Shown in pieces: positions 5,962 to 13,123 of a stretch of DNA of 23,099 nucleotides. The stretch's first letter is position 1. Every line of letters begins with the position of its first letter. Both the position numbers and the translations under genes were made by a program. Origin of the DNA: Thermoproteota archaeon (GTDB lineage Archaea; Korarchaeota; Korarchaeia; B14-G2); NCBI GenBank assembly GCA_003661385.1, contig QMWA01000010.1, positions 1-23,099 on the forward strand. The letters run 5' to 3'. The notes beneath the pieces are model-generated. The model searched no databases. It saw only the letters and a program-made list of their open reading frames with translations, and had not been told where the DNA came from.

Positions 5962-8019
5962 TTGCTGGCTATCGCAAGCCTAGTAGTAGGATGCCTCGTG
6001 ATGCTGACTGTAGCAGCCATATACAGGAGCGTAGCGAGGATAGACCCAGGAGAAAAGAGGATGGTTGAGATCGCAGGGTACATCAGAGAGGGTGCTAATG
6101 CGTACATGAGGAGGCAGTTCAAGACCATAGCATACTTCATAGCAGCCTTAGCAGCGATACTAGCAGCAGCGAGGGGACCATACACCTCGATAGCATTCAT
6201 CTATGGAGCAGTCCTCTCCCTGCTAGCAGCATACTTCGGCATGAACGCAGCGACCATAGCGAACGTGAGGACTGCTAACATGGCCAGAAAGGACCCAGGG
6301 AAGGCCGTTGTTGTGGCGTTCAGGGGAGGAGCTGTAATGGGCTTATCGCTAGTAGGCCTCAGCATAATAGGCATAAGCACACTGTACCTGCTATACGGCA
6401 AGCTGATCCCAGACGAGAGGACGATGCTAGAGTACATAGTAGGCTTCGGGTTTGGTGCAAGCCTAGCAGCTCTATTCGCCCAGCTAGGTGGCGGCATATA
6501 CACGAAGGCCGCTGACATAGGTGCCGACCTCGTAGGCAAAGTAGAGGCTGGGATCCCAGAAGATGACCCACGCAACCCAGCTGTCATAGCAGACCAGGTG
6601 GGAGACAACGTAGGAGACTGCGCAGGCAGAGGAGCAGACTTATTCGAGTCCTTCAGCGACAACATAATCGCCTCAATGATACTAGGCTTATCCCTAGCGA
6701 TGTCAATCGCAGCAGCATCGCCAGCCCTAGTCAAGAAGATAGTCGAGTTCCCACTCATGGTCGAGGCAGTAGGGGCCATAGCTGCCATAGCTGGAGTCCT
6801 AATGGTGAGAGGAGGCAGAGACCCAATGAAGTCCATAAACACAGGCCTAACAACAACCTCAGTGGTCTGCGCCATAGGCTTCATAGCTCTAGTGGAGGCT
6901 TTAGGCCTACCAGGAGGCCTAAGGCTAGCCTTAGCCTACATATCAGGTCTGCTTGCAAGCGTCATAGTAGGCTACATAACCCAGTACTACACCAGCGCAG
7001 ACTACGCTCCAGTGAAGAGGATAGCTGATGCAGCTAAGACAGGCCCAGCAATAAACATAATAATGGGCTTATCAGCTGGAATGGAGAGCGCAGTCCTCCC
7101 AATGGTCATAATCTCGGTTGTCATAATCTTCTCGTATGTGGTGATGGGAGGCATCAGGAACCCTGCTTCAGGCTTCTACGGCATCACAGCAGCCACCCTA
7201 GGCATACTCTCAACAACAGGCTTCATAATGTCATCAGACACATTCGGCCCGATATCAGACAACGCAGGCGGGATAGCAGAGATGTCAGGCATAGAAGATG
7301 AGGTAAGAGAGGCAACAGACGTGCTGGATGCTGTAGGCAATACAACAAAGGCCCTAACGAAGGGCTACGCGATGTCCTGTGCAGCCCTCTCTGCACTAGT
7401 CCTCTTCGCATCCTACGTGTACCTCATGAAGGAGTACGGGCACCCAGGTGTGATAAACCTCAGCAAGCCACATGTCATCGTAGGCACATTCCTAGGGGCA
7501 GCAGTGCCATTCCTGTTCTCAGCTCTAGCGATAAGAGCAGTCGGGAAGACAGCGTTCCAGATGGTAGAGGAGGTGAGAAGGCAGTTCAGAGAGATACCAG
7601 GGATCCTAGAGGGAAAAGCGAAGCCAGACTACGAGAGGTGCGTCGACATAAGCACGAGAAATGCCCTAAGAGAGATGATCGCTCCAACGCTGATAAGCCT
7701 AGCTGCACCAGTCCTAGTAGGCCTCCTGCTAGGAGGCGAAGCCCTAGGAGGGTTCCTCATAGCAGCAACAGCATCAGGAGCTCTGCTAGCGGTTTTCATG
7801 TTCAACGCTGGAGGTGCGTGGGACAACGCCAAAAAGTACATTGAATCTGGGTACCTAGGTGGGAAGGGGACACCAGCACACGCCGCCTCGGTGATAGGAG
7901 ACACAGTAGGAGACCCGCTAAAGGACACAGCAGGCCCGTCACTCCACATACTCATAAAGCTCCTCAACATAGTTGCACTAACCCTGGTGCCAATAATAGC
8001 CACAGCAGCTATCATCTAG
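5962..8019 (+). CDS. hppA: Membrane proton-translocating pyrophosphatase
   Basis: A 685-residue, roughly 16-helix membrane protein. It couples hydrolysis of pyrophosphate to proton pumping across the cytoplasmic membrane. The pyrophosphate- and Mg-binding region is DIGADLVGKVEAGIPEDDPR near residue 185, followed by DQVGDNVGDCAGRGADLFES. The second catalytic block, DTVGDPLKDTAGPS, is near the C terminus. The diagnostic GNTTKA at about 459-464 has Lys where K+-dependent enzymes have Ala, so this is the K+-independent, H+-pumping type. The TTG start is chosen from the GGGGG tract just upstream and from full family length. It overlaps the convergent HTH gene by 8 nt. Codon style is strongly host-like with many CTAG words. 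Confidence 0.97.
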   Translation: MLAIASLVVGCLVMLTVAAIYRSVARIDPGEKRMVEIAGYIREGANAYMRRQFKTIAYFIAALAAILAAARGPYTSIAFIYGAVLSLLAAYFGMNAATIANVRTANMARKDPGKAVVVAFRGGAVMGLSLVGLSIIGISTLYLLYGKLIPDERTMLEYIVGFGFGASLAALFAQLGGGIYTKAADIGADLVGKVEAGIPEDDPRNPAVIADQVGDNVGDCAGRGADLFESFSDNIIASMILGLSLAMSIAAASPALVKKIVEFPLMVEAVGAIAAIAGVLMVRGGRDPMKSINTGLTTTSVVCAIGFIALVEALGLPGGLRLALAYISGLLASVIVGYITQYYTSADYAPVKRIADAAKTGPAINIIMGLSAGMESAVLPMVIISVVIIFSYVVMGGIRNPASGFYGITAATLGILSTTGFIMSSDTFGPISDNAGGIAEMSGIEDEVREATDVLDAVGNTTKALTKGYAMSCAALSALVLFASYVYLMKEYGHPGVINLSKPHVIVGTFLGAAVPFLFSALAIRAVGKTAFQMVEEVRRQFREIPGILEGKAKPDYERCVDISTRNALREMIAPTLISLAAPVLVGLLLGGEALGGFLIAATASGALLAVFMFNAGGAWDNAKKYIESGYLGGKGTPAHAASVIGDTVGDPLKDTAGPSLHILIKLLNIVALTLVPIIATAAII

Positions 8020-8401
8020 TACGGTTGCTGTCATAAGTGCTTGTCACACCCTTTCTATTTACATTATCTGCCTCATGTAAGCTCCTCTTCTCGTAGCTGC
8101 AAGGCATTGAGGCTCTTAAGGCTCGACAAATCTGGCATATCTTCTCTGTCACCACTTCTGGATCCTTTGAGGTAGCTATCTCCCTTGCTGCCCCTCTTAT
8201 CTTCTCCATAATCTCCTTTCTGATCTCAACTGATCTCCCTCTCTTGCCCTTAAGGTACTGGGATACTGCAGCATGTGTCAGCCCAAGCTTGTCTGCAGCC
8301 TTCCTTTGGCTCAGTGAGAGCTCTCTAACCATGACTCTGGTGGGCTCCCTTCTTATCGCTGGGAGTATATACCATGTAGCTACTTCACAGGGGGTCTTCA
8401 A
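8012..8401 (-). CDS. COG2522-type HTH transcriptional regulator
   Basis: The N-terminal part, TPCEVATWYILPAIRRE, and the helix-turn-helix LSQRKAADKLGLTHAAVSQYLKGKRG match the archaeal regulator family whose HTH also occurs fused to ThiN in thiamine regulators. A cysteine cluster follows (CQICRALRASMPC), perhaps metal- or redox-sensing. The ThiN effector domain is absent. I chose the TTG at 8401 with GGGGGA just upstream because the family starts right before the PCEV motif; the frame remains open to 8461. It overlaps the SerK-like gene by 17 nt, so it is the last gene of the cysteine unit and may control it. The effector is unknown. Confidence 0.8.
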   Translation of the reverse strand: MKTPCEVATWYILPAIRREPTRVMVRELSLSQRKAADKLGLTHAAVSQYLKGKRGRSVEIRKEIMEKIRGAAREIATSKDPEVVTEKICQICRALRASMPCSYEKRSLHEADNVNRKGVTSTYDSNRTR

Positions 8402-8831
8402 CGCTCCCCCTTCTAAGCCTGCTAAGAGGCGTGTTGACAGGCCTTTGAAGCTTTTCGACATGCTTTAGCTCACCGTCAACTGACACCATGTGCTTCGTAG
8501 TTTTAGGTGGGAGTAGCTTGCCTGACATGGCTGCCTCCAAGGCTAGCTCCTTGCTTATATAGCCTTCTCCAGCCCACCTCCTGACCACTATCCTAGGGTC
8601 GCTGTAGTCTACTAGCATGGCTGGAACGACCTTTACACCCAGCTTTCTCAGAGCTCTCAGCCTGTGGTGCCCGTCGAGGATCGTGAGGGTCGCCCTGTCA
8701 GCTAGTATCGGCCTCTTCAGGACGCCGTCAGCCAGTATCTGCTTGATCAGCTCACTCAGTCTCTCGGTATCTACCTGCTCATGCTCTCTAAGCTTCTCTA
8801 GCTGAATGTACCCGAGCTCACATCCCACCAC
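8385..8831 (-). CDS. serK: SerK-like ParB-fold free serine kinase
   Basis: A ParB/sulfiredoxin-fold protein with LREHEQVD, TILDGHHRLRALRKLG (D53-G-H-H-R57), VVPAMLVDY and, later, PPKTTKH. This combination resembles the archaeal ADP- or ATP-dependent serine kinase SerK of Thermococcus, which phosphorylates free L-serine to O-phospho-L-serine for cysteine synthesis, rather than a chromosome-partition ParB, because no HTH follows. The neighbour supports this: it begins 2 nt after the stop of a cysteine/O-phosphoserine synthase gene. At 148 residues it seems shorter than the Thermococcus enzyme. The GTG start directly follows the upstream stop. A generic ParB-like nuclease-fold protein is the alternative. 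Confidence 0.75.
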   Translation of the reverse strand: MVGCELGYIQLEKLREHEQVDTERLSELIKQILADGVLKRPILADRATLTILDGHHRLRALRKLGVKVVPAMLVDYSDPRIVVRRWAGEGYISKELALEAAMSGKLLPPKTTKHMVSVDGELKHVEKLQRPVNTPLSRLRRGSVEDPL

Positions 8832-8833
8832 TC

Positions 8834-9747
8834 TTACACCCCATAGAGGTCTGTGCTCAGGTACTTCAGCCCAGAGTCCGGGAGCACAGCTACTATGACC
8901 TTCCCTTTACCAAGCTCCCTGGCCTTCTTCAGAGCTACGTAGAGGACTGCAGCTGAGCTCATCCCAACCAGCAGCCCCTCTTCTCTAGCCACCCTCCTAG
9001 CTGTCATCCAGACTTCCTGCAGCTCCTCTAGCCTAATCTCGACTATCTCATCGAAGTGCTCCCGCCTGAACAGCATGGTTGGGTTCGGCTCTCTAGGGTT
9101 CCTCAGCCCCTGTATGCTGACGCCCAGCTTCGGGGTAACTCCCACAACCTCTATAGATGGGTTGTACTGCTTAACTCTCATCGAGACCCCTACTCCTGTT
9201 CCAGCAGTCCCTACTCCGACTACAACCATGTCTAGCTTCCCGCCTGCCTGCTCGATGATCTCTCTCTTCCAGTGGTCTGGTAGTGTGCAAGTATGTTAGC
9301 TGGGTCTTTAAACTGGTCTAGGTCTATGTACCTGTCGGGGTTCTCCTCAAGGATCTTCCTCTTGAGCTCTATGGCTCCACTCGTCCCCTTCTCACCTGGA
9401 GATAGGATGAGCTCTGCTCCATATGCCCTTATTATCTTCCTCCTCTCTAGGCTGACAGACTCCGGCATCACTACAGCCACCTTATAGCCTTTAGCTGCAC
9501 CTATCATTGCAAGCGCTATCCCAGTGTTGCCAGGTGTGGCCTCAAGTATTGTTTTGCTCCTGTCTAGCCTCCCAGCTGCCTCCGCATACTCTATCAGGTA
9601 GAGAGCCATCCTGTCCTTAACCGAGCCCCCTGGATTGTATCACTCAAGCTTGGCGTAAACTGTAGCGTCTCTATCTCCTACTACCCTCCTAAGCTTCACC
9701 ATCGGTGTCCTTCCGATGAGGTCAAGCATGCTCTCAGCCACTAGCAT
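8834..9747 (-). pseudogene. Cysteine/O-phosphoserine synthase, twice disrupted
   Basis: Put together, the frames give a full-length PLP fold-type II cysteine synthase of about 300 residues: MLDLIGRTPMVKL, the PLP lysine K44 in NPGGSVKDR, the substrate loop [27 protein letters not shown] and PDSG near the end. Two lesions break it. First, codon 36 is TGA (9642-9640) where KLE is followed by YNPGG; a TGG tryptophan codon would fit. Second, a (TC)4/(GA)4 run at 9259-9266 is 2 nt longer than needed, so the frame after TTGRE ends early at 9232 and the rest resumes in another frame to 8834. Next to serK, the natural substrate would be O-phosphoserine. As written it cannot give a full enzyme; recent pseudogenisation, slippage variation or sequencing error are the options. 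Confidence 0.85.
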
Positions 9748-9896: not shown

Positions 9897-10769
9897 TTAT
9901 TCCATAGCTTCTGCCTTATCCGCCTCACTAGGTCTCCCAATCCACTGCTGGAACTCACTTAAGACAGGGAGCGTGGCTTCTTCAACGTCTCTCACATCCT
10001 CCGCCCTTTCCTCCTCAGTACTTACCCTGGAGAACGCTATTCTAAGCGGAATGTGCTTCTTGAAGAAGCTGATATGCGGTGATATCACACCTCTAATGAT
10101 TTCCTGGTATCTTCCTCTCATCAGAGCCCAGTACTGGGCTGTATTCCTCCTAACCATGTTGAACAGGAGCCTGACTTGATCAAAGACTTCCTTCTTAGGC
10201 TTACCAGCAAGCGCTGGAAGCTCACTGAGCATCTTACACGTCCTAAACACGTCTATTATGGTTGGTCTAAGCGGTATTATGCACTTATCTGAGCCATACA
10301 ACGTCAGTATGGCATACTTCCTGTCAAAAAAGGGTATTGTATCTATGATGATGAAGTCGTACGCCTCTCTCACACCGAGAGCCTCTAACACCCTTCTGAG
10401 CTTATACTCCTTCCTAGCTTCAGGACCATACCATAGTGAGTCTATGATGCTGGTCAGCTCTGAGTCTGGAATCAGTATATCCACTTCCACGTCTATAGCT
10501 TTACCTGAAACAACGTAGTCCTCAAGCTCCACGCTTCTACCCTTCCTAACCCTCTCAAAAACCCTAGACAAGCACCTGCCACGGTTCTCGTACTCAAACA
10601 GCTTGCTCTCATCCCTGAGAACGAGATATGAGAGCGATATGCTCGGATCCAGGTCTACCAGTAGAACTTTATTGCCAGCTCTCCTCAATAGCCAGCCTAA
10701 CACAAGGGATATCGTGGTCTTCCCTGTGCCACCTGGAGCGGAAAAGACTCCAATGACCACCCCAGTCAA
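9897..10769 (-). CDS. Atypical ParA/MinD-family ATPase
   Basis: A 290-residue SIMIBI-class ATPase. Residues 12-19 read PGGTGKTT, a Walker A loop, followed by LLVDLDPS (A' motif, D39/D41), an insertion with many charged residues, and FIIIDTIPFF (Walker B-like). The signature lysine of ParA/MinD (KGGxGKT) is replaced by proline, so the usual cross-dimer contact to ATP is missing. The C-terminal third (YWALMRGRYQEIIRG onwards) matches nothing I know. The TTG at 10769 is preferred: it overlaps the stop of the nuclease-like gene by TTGA and follows GGAGGTGG. GTG at 10760 is an alternative. The tight coupling suggests the two proteins act together. Confidence 0.8.
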   Translation of the reverse strand: MTGVVIGVFSAPGGTGKTTISLVLGWLLRRAGNKVLLVDLDPSISLSYLVLRDESKLFEYENRGRCLSRVFERVRKGRSVELEDYVVSGKAIDVEVDILIPDSELTSIIDSLWYGPEARKEYKLRRVLEALGVREAYDFIIIDTIPFFDRKYAILTLYGSDKCIIPLRPTIIDVFRTCKMLSELPALAGKPKKEVFDQVRLLFNMVRRNTAQYWALMRGRYQEIIRGVISPHISFFKKHIPLRIAFSRVSTEEERAEDVRDVEEATLPVLSEFQQWIGRPSEADKAEAME

Positions 10770-11176
10770 CCAACCACCTCCACTCTGCAATCTCTAAGTG
10801 ACATCAGTATAGCCTTAATCCCAAGCTTTGAAGCAAGAGCTCTCAGTCCGCTGGCATGCTTTTCATCAGCTTGCTCAACAAGGTGCACTATACAGGAGTT
10901 AAGCCCATATAGCTCTCTGACAGCTAAAGCCTGCCCAAATCCATCATAGAACCTCTTCCCAACCTTGATCTCAAGCGCTACATCAGGTAGGAGGATATCA
11001 ACCTCTACGTCAGGGTACTTCTGCGACTCAAGCCTCACACGCCTTTTCACATCCAGTCCACGTATTCTCAGCCTGAATGCGATTAAATCTTGAGCAAGTC
11101 TCTCACTTTCCACCTTCTTAAACTCGCATGAGAGCTCAGATAGGACTTCAACAAGGTGTTTTATGCTATCAAGCAT
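10766..11176 (-). CDS. PD-(D/E)XK nuclease-like protein
   Basis: A 136-residue protein with a nuclease-fold core: an N-terminal helix with Glu24, then YPDVEVDILLPDVALEIKVG giving D60 (D-x8-E-x-K), E69 and K71, followed by FGQALAVRELYG, the helix carrying Gln82 typical of restriction-endonuclease-like folds. It is predicted to cleave DNA or RNA, with metal bound by D60 and E69. No DNA-recognition domain is visible. It is translationally coupled to the ParA-like ATPase through a 4-nt overlap, suggesting that the ATPase controls or loads the nuclease. I know of no named system with this pair. It could also be a nuclease-fold structural protein. Confidence 0.65.
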   Translation of the reverse strand: MLDSIKHLVEVLSELSCEFKKVESERLAQDLIAFRLRIRGLDVKRRVRLESQKYPDVEVDILLPDVALEIKVGKRFYDGFGQALAVRELYGLNSCIVHLVEQADEKHASGLRALASKLGIKAILMSLRDCRVEVVG

Positions 11177-11197: not shown

Positions 11198-11208
11198 CTT
11201 AATAAAGT
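11198..11208 (-). promoter_or_regulatory. TATA box for nuclease-ParA pair
   Basis: On the minus strand CTTTATTAAGC is centred about 28 nt before the ATG at 11176, fitting a leaderless bicistronic transcript. Confidence 0.45.
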
Positions 11209-11919: not shown

Positions 11920-12393
11920 GTGACTACATGTGGGTGGTTCACGCTGAAGGACGAAGTTGACCTGCAGGAGCTTGCTCAGCTTATATCGATGAGGAAAGGT
12001 AAGGTGAAGCCTGCTGCACTAAGTAAGGCTAAAGGCGAGGCCTTAAAAGCTCTTCCAGAGGAGCTTGCAGCGGAAGCCCCTGAAGAGGCTGCTCCTCCAG
12101 GGATAGAGGGATTTCCATCAGTTGAAGAGATTCAAGCTGAGCTCGAGCTGCTAGACTACCTTCTGATGAAGCTCGGTGAGCTTAAGGCTAAGCTGAGAGA
12201 AGAGGAGTACATGAGGCTCAAGTCGAGGTATGAGCAGTTCATCAGGTCAAAGAAGAGGAAGCTGATGACGATGTCCAAGATAATAGAGCTCGAGAGGCAG
12301 AGGTCAGAGTACGAGAGGAAGCTTTCAGAGATAAGTGATGAGGTGAAGCGGCTGAGGGAGCTCCTCGAAAGGGAGGAGACCATCCCACCTTAG
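11920..12393 (+). CDS. Unknown coiled-coil protein paired with ParA
   Basis: 157 residues. The first about 60 are mixed, with an Ala/Glu/Pro-rich linker (AAEAPEEAAPPGIEG). From about residue 65 to the end, heptad-like leucine and charge patterns predict a long coiled coil (ELLDYLLMKLGELKAKLREEE, then SEYERKLSEISDEVKRLREL). No signal peptide or membrane segment is seen and I recognise no family. The downstream ParA/MinD ATPase begins 4-10 nt after the stop, so they are co-transcribed and probably interact. The GTG start is weakly supported: the TATA element is only 10 nt upstream and an in-frame ATG lies at 11989. Confidence 0.7.
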   Translation: MTTCGWFTLKDEVDLQELAQLISMRKGKVKPAALSKAKGEALKALPEELAAEAPEEAAPPGIEGFPSVEEIQAELELLDYLLMKLGELKAKLREEEYMRLKSRYEQFIRSKKRKLMTMSKIIELERQRSEYERKLSEISDEVKRLRELLEREETIPP

Positions 12394-12403
12394 GGTAGTG
12401 TAC

Positions 12404-13123
12404 ATGCCAATCATATCATTCACCTCATGGAAGGGAGGAGTTGGCAAGACATTCCTCACAGTGAATGCTGCAGTCTACCTTGCCTCCAAGGGGAAGAAGG
12501 TTCTGCTCGTCGATGGAAGCAGAAGCGGCGACGCAGAGCTGATGCTCGGGATAAAGGCTGAGAAGACCCTATATGACGTGGTGCTAGGGTCATGCAGCCT
12601 AAGTGATGTAGTGTCTGAGAAGTACGGCGTGAGCGTGCTTCCAATAGGCTTCTCACTTGAGGCTCAGCGCAGAGTAAGCTGGAAGGCAATCTACAAGTCT
12701 GTAAAGGAGCTGTCAGACAAGTATGAGCTCATCCTAGTCGACACGCCACCTATCGTAGCAGGGCTAGTCAGCAGGAGGGAGGCTTTGGGAAGCCTAGTCG
12801 TAGGAGACCTCTTCTACATAGTCACAACACCTGCTAAGACTGCTCTGATGAACGCCTTGAAGACCAAGATGCTGCTCGAGAAGATAGGCAAGAAAGTGAG
12901 TGGCGTCATAGTCAACAGGTGGAGAGCAAGCCTGCTCTCAAAGCCATACTACAGGCCCAGCGAGATAGAGGCCTTCCTTAAGGCTAAGATATCAGCTATA
13001 ATACCAGAGGACAAGAACGTTATGAGGTCAATTAACGCAAGCAAGCCTCTAGTGCTTAAGCCAAGCAGCCCTGCTGCAAGAGCCATAGTGAAGTTCTGTG
13101 ACAGCTTCCTACTCAGCTATTAA
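12404..13123 (+). CDS. MinD/ParA-family ATPase
   Basis: A 239-residue deviant-Walker ATPase with K10-G-G-V-G-K15-T, keeping the signature lysine, and LVDTPP as the Walker B-like strand. The A' loop is unusual: after LLVD it reads GSRSGDAEL, not the DxDPQ of plasmid ParA. These proteins form ATP-dependent dimers that position DNA or protein complexes at surfaces. No C-terminal amphipathic MinD membrane helix is obvious. I chose the ATG at 12404 because AGGG lies 8 nt upstream; a GTG at 12398 would overlap that site. It follows the coiled-coil gene closely. Its 3' end overlaps the convergent coiled-coil gene by 15 nt. Confidence 0.88.
   Translation: MPIISFTSWKGGVGKTFLTVNAAVYLASKGKKVLLVDGSRSGDAELMLGIKAEKTLYDVVLGSCSLSDVVSEKYGVSVLPIGFSLEAQRRVSWKAIYKSVKELSDKYELILVDTPPIVAGLVSRREALGSLVVGDLFYIVTTPAKTALMNALKTKMLLEKIGKKVSGVIVNRWRASLLSKPYYRPSEIEAFLKAKISAIIPEDKNVMRSINASKPLVLKPSSPAARAIVKFCDSFLLSY

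Follow-up and report, generated by a model that had tools for sequence, protein, structure and literature searches.

A PD-(D/E)XK nuclease-fold protein encoded beside a ParA-type ATPase in Korarchaeia and Thermoproteia

ParA ATPases move or place cargo. In the ParABS and McdAB systems (Soj-Spo0J, McdA-McdB) the ParA-fold ATPase is encoded with a small dedicated operon partner, and McdA, which lacks the signature lysine of the family (SGGQGKT), still binds DNA and hydrolyses ATP (PMC9178275). Archaea further possess the two-gene units SegAB and NurA-HerA, the latter coupling a nuclease with a DNA-handling ATPase. In Thermoproteales, where neither FtsZ nor ESCRT-III is present (PMC3189178; PMC7613921), the ParA TTX_1301 of Thermoproteus tenax was put forward in 2011 as a cell-division candidate. 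The passage on TTX_1301 gives its role as unknown, counts it among 19 families that are core to Thermoproteales and absent in other Crenarchaeota, and treats it as a ParA alone, with no mention of a nuclease neighbour (PMC3189178). Nuclease-ATPase couples (NurA-HerA) and ParA-partner couples (ParAB, McdAB, SegAB) are already known, and we found no description of a nuclease-ParA pair, or of a nuclease partner for TTX_1301, in the literature outside subscription papers.

Here, such a pair is described from the window, by which we mean the whole stretch of 23,099 nt that was analysed, a contig of a metagenome-assembled genome that is 91% complete and, to judge from its relatives, probably one of the Korarchaeia. 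Like ParABS and McdAB, the locus joins a ParA-fold ATPase to a small dedicated operon partner, and the signature lysine is absent as in McdA; unlike in those systems, a PD-(D/E)XK nuclease whose active site is conserved stands in place of ParB, McdB or an adaptor of the ribbon-helix-helix type. No ParB or centromere-binding protein of the ParABS kind accompanies the ATPase, its constant partner being the nuclease. NurA-HerA is comparable as an archaeal two-gene unit of nuclease and DNA-handling ATPase, but NurA has an RNase H fold, HerA is FtsK-like and the nuclease family is not shared; SegAB is also an archaeal two-gene unit, but SegB is not a nuclease and its family is not shared either. 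The nearest nuclease cores are those of EndoMS/NucS and AF1548, with the acidic residues and the E-x-K motif in common, whereas the window nuclease is a single compact domain with less than 25% identity to them, has no DNA-binding N-terminal domain and occurs nearly always with ParA. TTX_1301 very probably belongs to the same ParA family.

The gene pair and its predicted products

The pair comprises the following features.

10766-11176, minus strand: stand-alone PD-(D/E)XK nuclease-fold protein of 136 aa with an ATG start; active-site set E25, D60, E69-x-K71 and Q82
9897-10769, minus strand: ParA/Soj-type ATPase of 290 aa, start at TTG 10769; Walker A (SAPGGTGKTT) lacks the signature lysine, whereas Walker A' (DLDP) and Walker B are retained
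10766-10769, minus strand: TTGA overlap with the ParA start codon within the nuclease stop codon; probable translational coupling
11199-11206, minus strand: TATA-like box TTTATTAA, 30 nt upstream of the nuclease ATG; candidate leaderless promoter

An AlphaFold2 model of the 136-aa protein, calculated with 38 homologues as input, reached a pLDDT of 94.4 and contains an alpha-beta-beta-beta-alpha-beta core (helix 25-38, strands 44-49, 57-62 and 66-72, helix 76-90, strand 93-100). Foldseek gave no match to this model in the PDB at E<=0.001. With VIA-align the top PDB rows were nearly all PD-(D/E)XK nucleases at Z 9.2 to 8.0, led by AF1548 (9.2), EndoMS (8.7, 21-22% identity), VC1899 (8.4), BstYI (8.3) and BglII (8.2); Can2, Card1, NucC and Hjc follow further down the ranking. 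A Z of 7-9 by itself could be common, and we regard the fold as settled because of the near-unanimous superfamily among the rows together with the catalytic residues. The sequences of the 38 homologues diverge strongly, and their alignment leaves E25, D60, E69, G79 and Q82 as the sole invariant positions. Residue 71 is lysine in 20 of them, the window copy included, and glutamate in 18; active restriction enzymes likewise have either residue at this place, E-x-E being that of BamHI. By its model, the protein belongs to the PD-(D/E)XK fold with the catalytic residues kept, and DNA cleavage is predicted; a DNA-binding fold gone inactive would be expected to drop E25, D60, E69 and Q82. An earlier note, made from the window sequence, had proposed a nuclease with D60, E69-x-K71 and Q82 next to a ParA-family ATPase, and had named structure prediction of the nuclease in advance as a refutation test. 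Both reading frames proved to be real, the residues are those claimed, with the invariant E25 in addition, and the predictions uphold the nuclease fold as well as the ParA assignment.

Pfam holds no family for the window nuclease and none that is convincing for any of the 38 relatives, no PADLOC 2.0.0 model matches the nuclease in the 38 members, and PHROGs yielded marginal matches only, all of unknown function. The nuclease is not a recognised family in any of these three collections, and with the pair comes a nuclease family that Pfam lacks. An NCBIfam secretion-effector model was dismissed as a chance match, scoring 15 bits where the cut-off is 872.

The ATPase matches PF13614 (AAA_31) with 71.6 bits (1e-19), and its AlphaFold2 model (pLDDT 94.5) finds its closest structures in ParA, Soj and McdA, with Z from 26.6 to 25 (26.6 for ParA, 25.8 for McdA). 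Invariant throughout this ParA family are G13, G14, G16, K17, T18, D39, D41, D143 and P146. Wherever the P-loop of a copy can be read, proline, serine, alanine or glycine stands in place of the signature lysine (KGGxxK[ST]), the loop being otherwise intact. The earlier label of a deviant-Walker ATPase needs correcting, since the lysine that defines the deviant type is missing. An arginine as stand-in is not claimed, as the conserved R168 lies about five columns off McdA K151 in the alignment. A MinD-like membrane-targeting C terminus was not apparent when the ParA C termini were inspected by eye.

The longest ATPase reading frame would start at TTG 10790 and overlap the nuclease gene by 25 nt, whereas a start at TTG 10769 gives an overlap of 4 nt; the latter is likelier because the copy in genome G012 shares the identical TTGA junction, and the 4-nt overlap stated in the earlier note holds with this start. 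Overlap exceeds chance: the two genes share from 4 nt to a few tens of nucleotides in each of the 12 nuclease-first pairs whose junctions were inspected. At three junctions from Thermoproteaceae (L113, L063, L067) the nuclease stop codon falls at the Walker A codons of ParA, so that both frames constrain each other. TATA-like boxes comparable to that of the window stand 29-30 nt upstream of the start in G011, G014, G076 and G078 and 33 nt upstream in L066. A single leaderless promoter, as had been proposed, is on this pattern plausible for the window pair.

Occurrence, pairing and inheritance

Searches covered 26 Korarchaeia, 81 Thermoproteia, 398 Thermoproteota and 227 Asgard genomes. The nuclease is present in 5 of the Korarchaeia, 32 of the Thermoproteia and 4 of the Asgard genomes, one Asgard copy being a fragment. 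Because the matches listed for the 398 Thermoproteota all come from genomes already in the Thermoproteia search, the nuclease looks confined to class Thermoproteia within that sample. A ParA of the same family directly adjoins the nuclease at 49 of its 52 loci, which are spread over Korarchaeia, Thermoproteia and a handful of Asgard archaea, and the pairing is thus not peculiar to the window genome. The second refutation test named in the earlier note, homologues that never co-occur with the ATPase, likewise did not refute the proposal. Two of the three exceptions are fragments of fewer than 75 residues (L087, L112); the third, in G032, is the only full-length nuclease without adjacent ParA, which lies on a separate contig of that genome (L059). 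ParA was found without a detected nuclease in G024 and G025 and may therefore do a separate job. The ParA matches in bacteria, Paenibacillus among them, lack an adjoining nuclease.

The genomes carry 5 to 12 ParA-type genes each, and adjacency to the nuclease by chance is expected at about 1%. Four arrangements occur (nuclease-first at about 23 loci, ParA-first at 14, convergent at 9, divergent at 3), and the ParA tree requires eight changes of arrangement label, orphans included. The distance matrices of nuclease and ParA correlate with r=0.82 over 29 pairs, a value reached in none of 5000 permutations and to which shared ancestry contributes. Because adjacency has been kept in dozens of distant heat-loving archaea despite the reshuffled order, the two proteins very probably cooperate, and from these sequence patterns they very probably form one functional unit. 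There is no third conserved partner beside the pair; the neighbours in common reflect synteny within genera.

On the ParA tree the window copy groups with one Korarchaeia group, near copies from Lokiarchaeota and other Asgard archaea, while the Korarchaeia G011 and G014 group with Thermofilum-like copies. This split placement suggests transfer. The surroundings of the pair are conserved within Vulcanisaeta-like and within Caldivirga genomes, so there it is inherited with the chromosome. Paralogous copies also occur within one genome. Decay has affected both genes in G003 and probably in G015. G102 has a second copy in which the nuclease beside an intact ParA is lost or broken, and the same holds for G105. 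In G104 the ParA N terminus including the P-loop is gone and the nuclease active site is retained. Sequencing errors may explain the frameshifts seen in G092 and G094. As several copies are decayed, the module is evidently dispensable. Frameshifts or truncations of either pair member also recur in Vulcanisaeta- and Pyrobaculum-like genomes (L143 7181-8145, L138 8925-9889, L139 8593-9231, L145 8330-8744).

The earlier note had also considered the core of an integrated element. This reading found no support: no integrase or transposase is among the 25 commonest of 116 neighbour families (16 loci), a tRNA scan of the window returned no tRNA, a plasmid search gave no support for a plasmid cassette either, and context is shared within genera. 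Virus contigs scanned with the nuclease and ParA alignments gave no match.

Possible functions of the pair

The genome G111, which we take to be Thermoproteus tenax, has one strong ParA-type (AAA_31) match outside a 106-kb region, at 1.144 Mb, the sole strong one in that half of the genome, and an actin match at 0.6505 Mb. Because actin as TTX_0752 puts tag 1301 near 1.13-1.15 Mb, the ParA of the nuclease pair is very probably TTX_1301, an identity derived from position and not from annotation. The pair would give a concrete partner and testable biochemistry to the ParA that was very probably flagged in 2011 for Thermoproteales division.

We favour a model of an ATP-controlled DNA-processing nuclease, and to this mechanism we give an even chance. 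The ParA-type ATPase would load on DNA as an ATP-bound dimer, like Soj, McdA and other ParA proteins. The PD-(D/E)XK protein would fill the place of ParB or McdB, binding the ATPase and being recruited by it to DNA, where it would cut or nick as the ATP cycle dictates; it would probably also stimulate ATP hydrolysis by ParA. The nearest structures speak for the model, those of the nuclease being DNA nucleases (AF1548, EndoMS/NucS, BglII-type and CARF-linked enzymes) and those of the ATPase the DNA-binding ParA, Soj and McdA. The setting may be repair, recombination or the resolution of replicated chromosomes. Physical contact, cutting, ATP gating and the biological role, be it genome maintenance or defence, we infer from sequence comparison and models. 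Chromosomal DNA maintenance as the likeliest setting, with the pair as a non-essential accessory of Thermoproteia and Korarchaeia, deserves about half the confidence given to the mechanism. It is favoured by the chromosomal context, the inheritance within genera and the core-gene statement of 2011; a core maintenance role fits badly, since the pair is limited to about 40% of Thermoproteia and about a quarter of Korarchaeia and copies have decayed. Tentatively, the pair could be a novel two-component archaeal DNA machine, with a PD-(D/E)XK nuclease under the direction of a ParA that lacks the signature lysine. It would serve to handle or divide chromosomes in archaea whose mode of division has yet to be described. 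If this is true, directed DNA cutting would be added to the work of the ParA family through its constant nuclease partner.

Another role, favoured by the patchy distribution, the transfer and the decay, is defence against plasmids or viruses, in which ParA would scan incoming DNA and license the nuclease to cut. Patchy and cross-phylum presence, two unrelated Korarchaeia lineages, paralogues, divergence and repeated decay are typical traits of defence genes, and the defence effectors NucC, Can2 and Card1 are among the structural neighbours of the nuclease. Taken by itself this reading is nevertheless unlikely. PADLOC gave ParA only a weak P-loop match at 22 bits and the nuclease none, consistent with the earlier view that the pairing lies outside described defence. 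Among 90 neighbours from 16 loci, those with a match are mostly metabolic or translation genes; defence models match scattered single neighbours only, with CRISPR-type models on single genes and a HerA-like ATPase close to the pair at L114. The conserved context in Vulcanisaeta-like and Caldivirga genomes also speaks against it, as does the ranking, in the T. tenax passage, of what is probably TTX_1301 as a Thermoproteales core gene (PMC3189178). Genome maintenance and defence are given about equal weight, and segregation through a non-cutting adaptor less.

In that last reading, which we consider improbable, ParA would drive positioning in chromosome segregation or cell division, and the nuclease-fold protein would serve it as a DNA-binding adaptor for which cutting is no longer required. 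Soj and McdA are closest to the ParA fold, the probable T. tenax member is a division candidate where FtsZ and ESCRT-III are absent, and the pair occurs only in groups with actin-bearing members. An adaptor, however, would not need the metal-binding acidic residues and Q82, all of which are invariant; moreover, the pair is missing or decayed in many members of both groups, and actin genes occur in 69 of 81 genomes as against 32 of 81 for the pair. A toxin-antitoxin-like couple, with a nuclease harmful alone and restrained by ParA, agrees with small overlapping genes, a nuclease rarely found without ParA while ParA is found alone, and the intact ParA beside a lost or broken nuclease in G102 (second copy) and G105, but is very improbable given that the pair is passed on vertically at one position within genera and given the reverse case of G104, and ParA ATPases are not known to act as antitoxins.

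Neighbouring genes in the window

ParA genes have been reported near Ted DNA-import loci of Thermoproteales (PMC9905601); on inspection, no Ted gene stood out among the genes around the pairs that had been scanned. The window itself contains a second, canonical ParA (KGGVGKT) at 12398-13123 on the plus strand, 1.2 kb from the pair and preceded by a small coiled-coil gene (11920-12393, plus strand). These two genes are possibly an unrelated ParA-partner operon; the second ParA was rejected as part of the nuclease-ParA unit, being absent next to other copies.

A ParB_N protein at 8385-8831 on the minus strand was likewise rejected as ParA partner, since it is SerK-like and not recurrent beside other copies. 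TK0378, annotated as ParB, is the ADP-dependent serine kinase SerK (PMC5120207). The window gene carries a DGHHR motif and adjoins a cysteine-synthase-like gene, and by this motif and its context it is probably a serine kinase of the TK0378 type and not a partition ParB. It overlaps the reading frame of an HTH regulator (8012-8461, minus strand) by 77 nt, which is unusually long, or a later start is used. The cysteine-synthase-like (PALP) gene at 8834-9609 on the minus strand appears to be split over two frames at about 9230, by a sequencing error or as a pseudogene.
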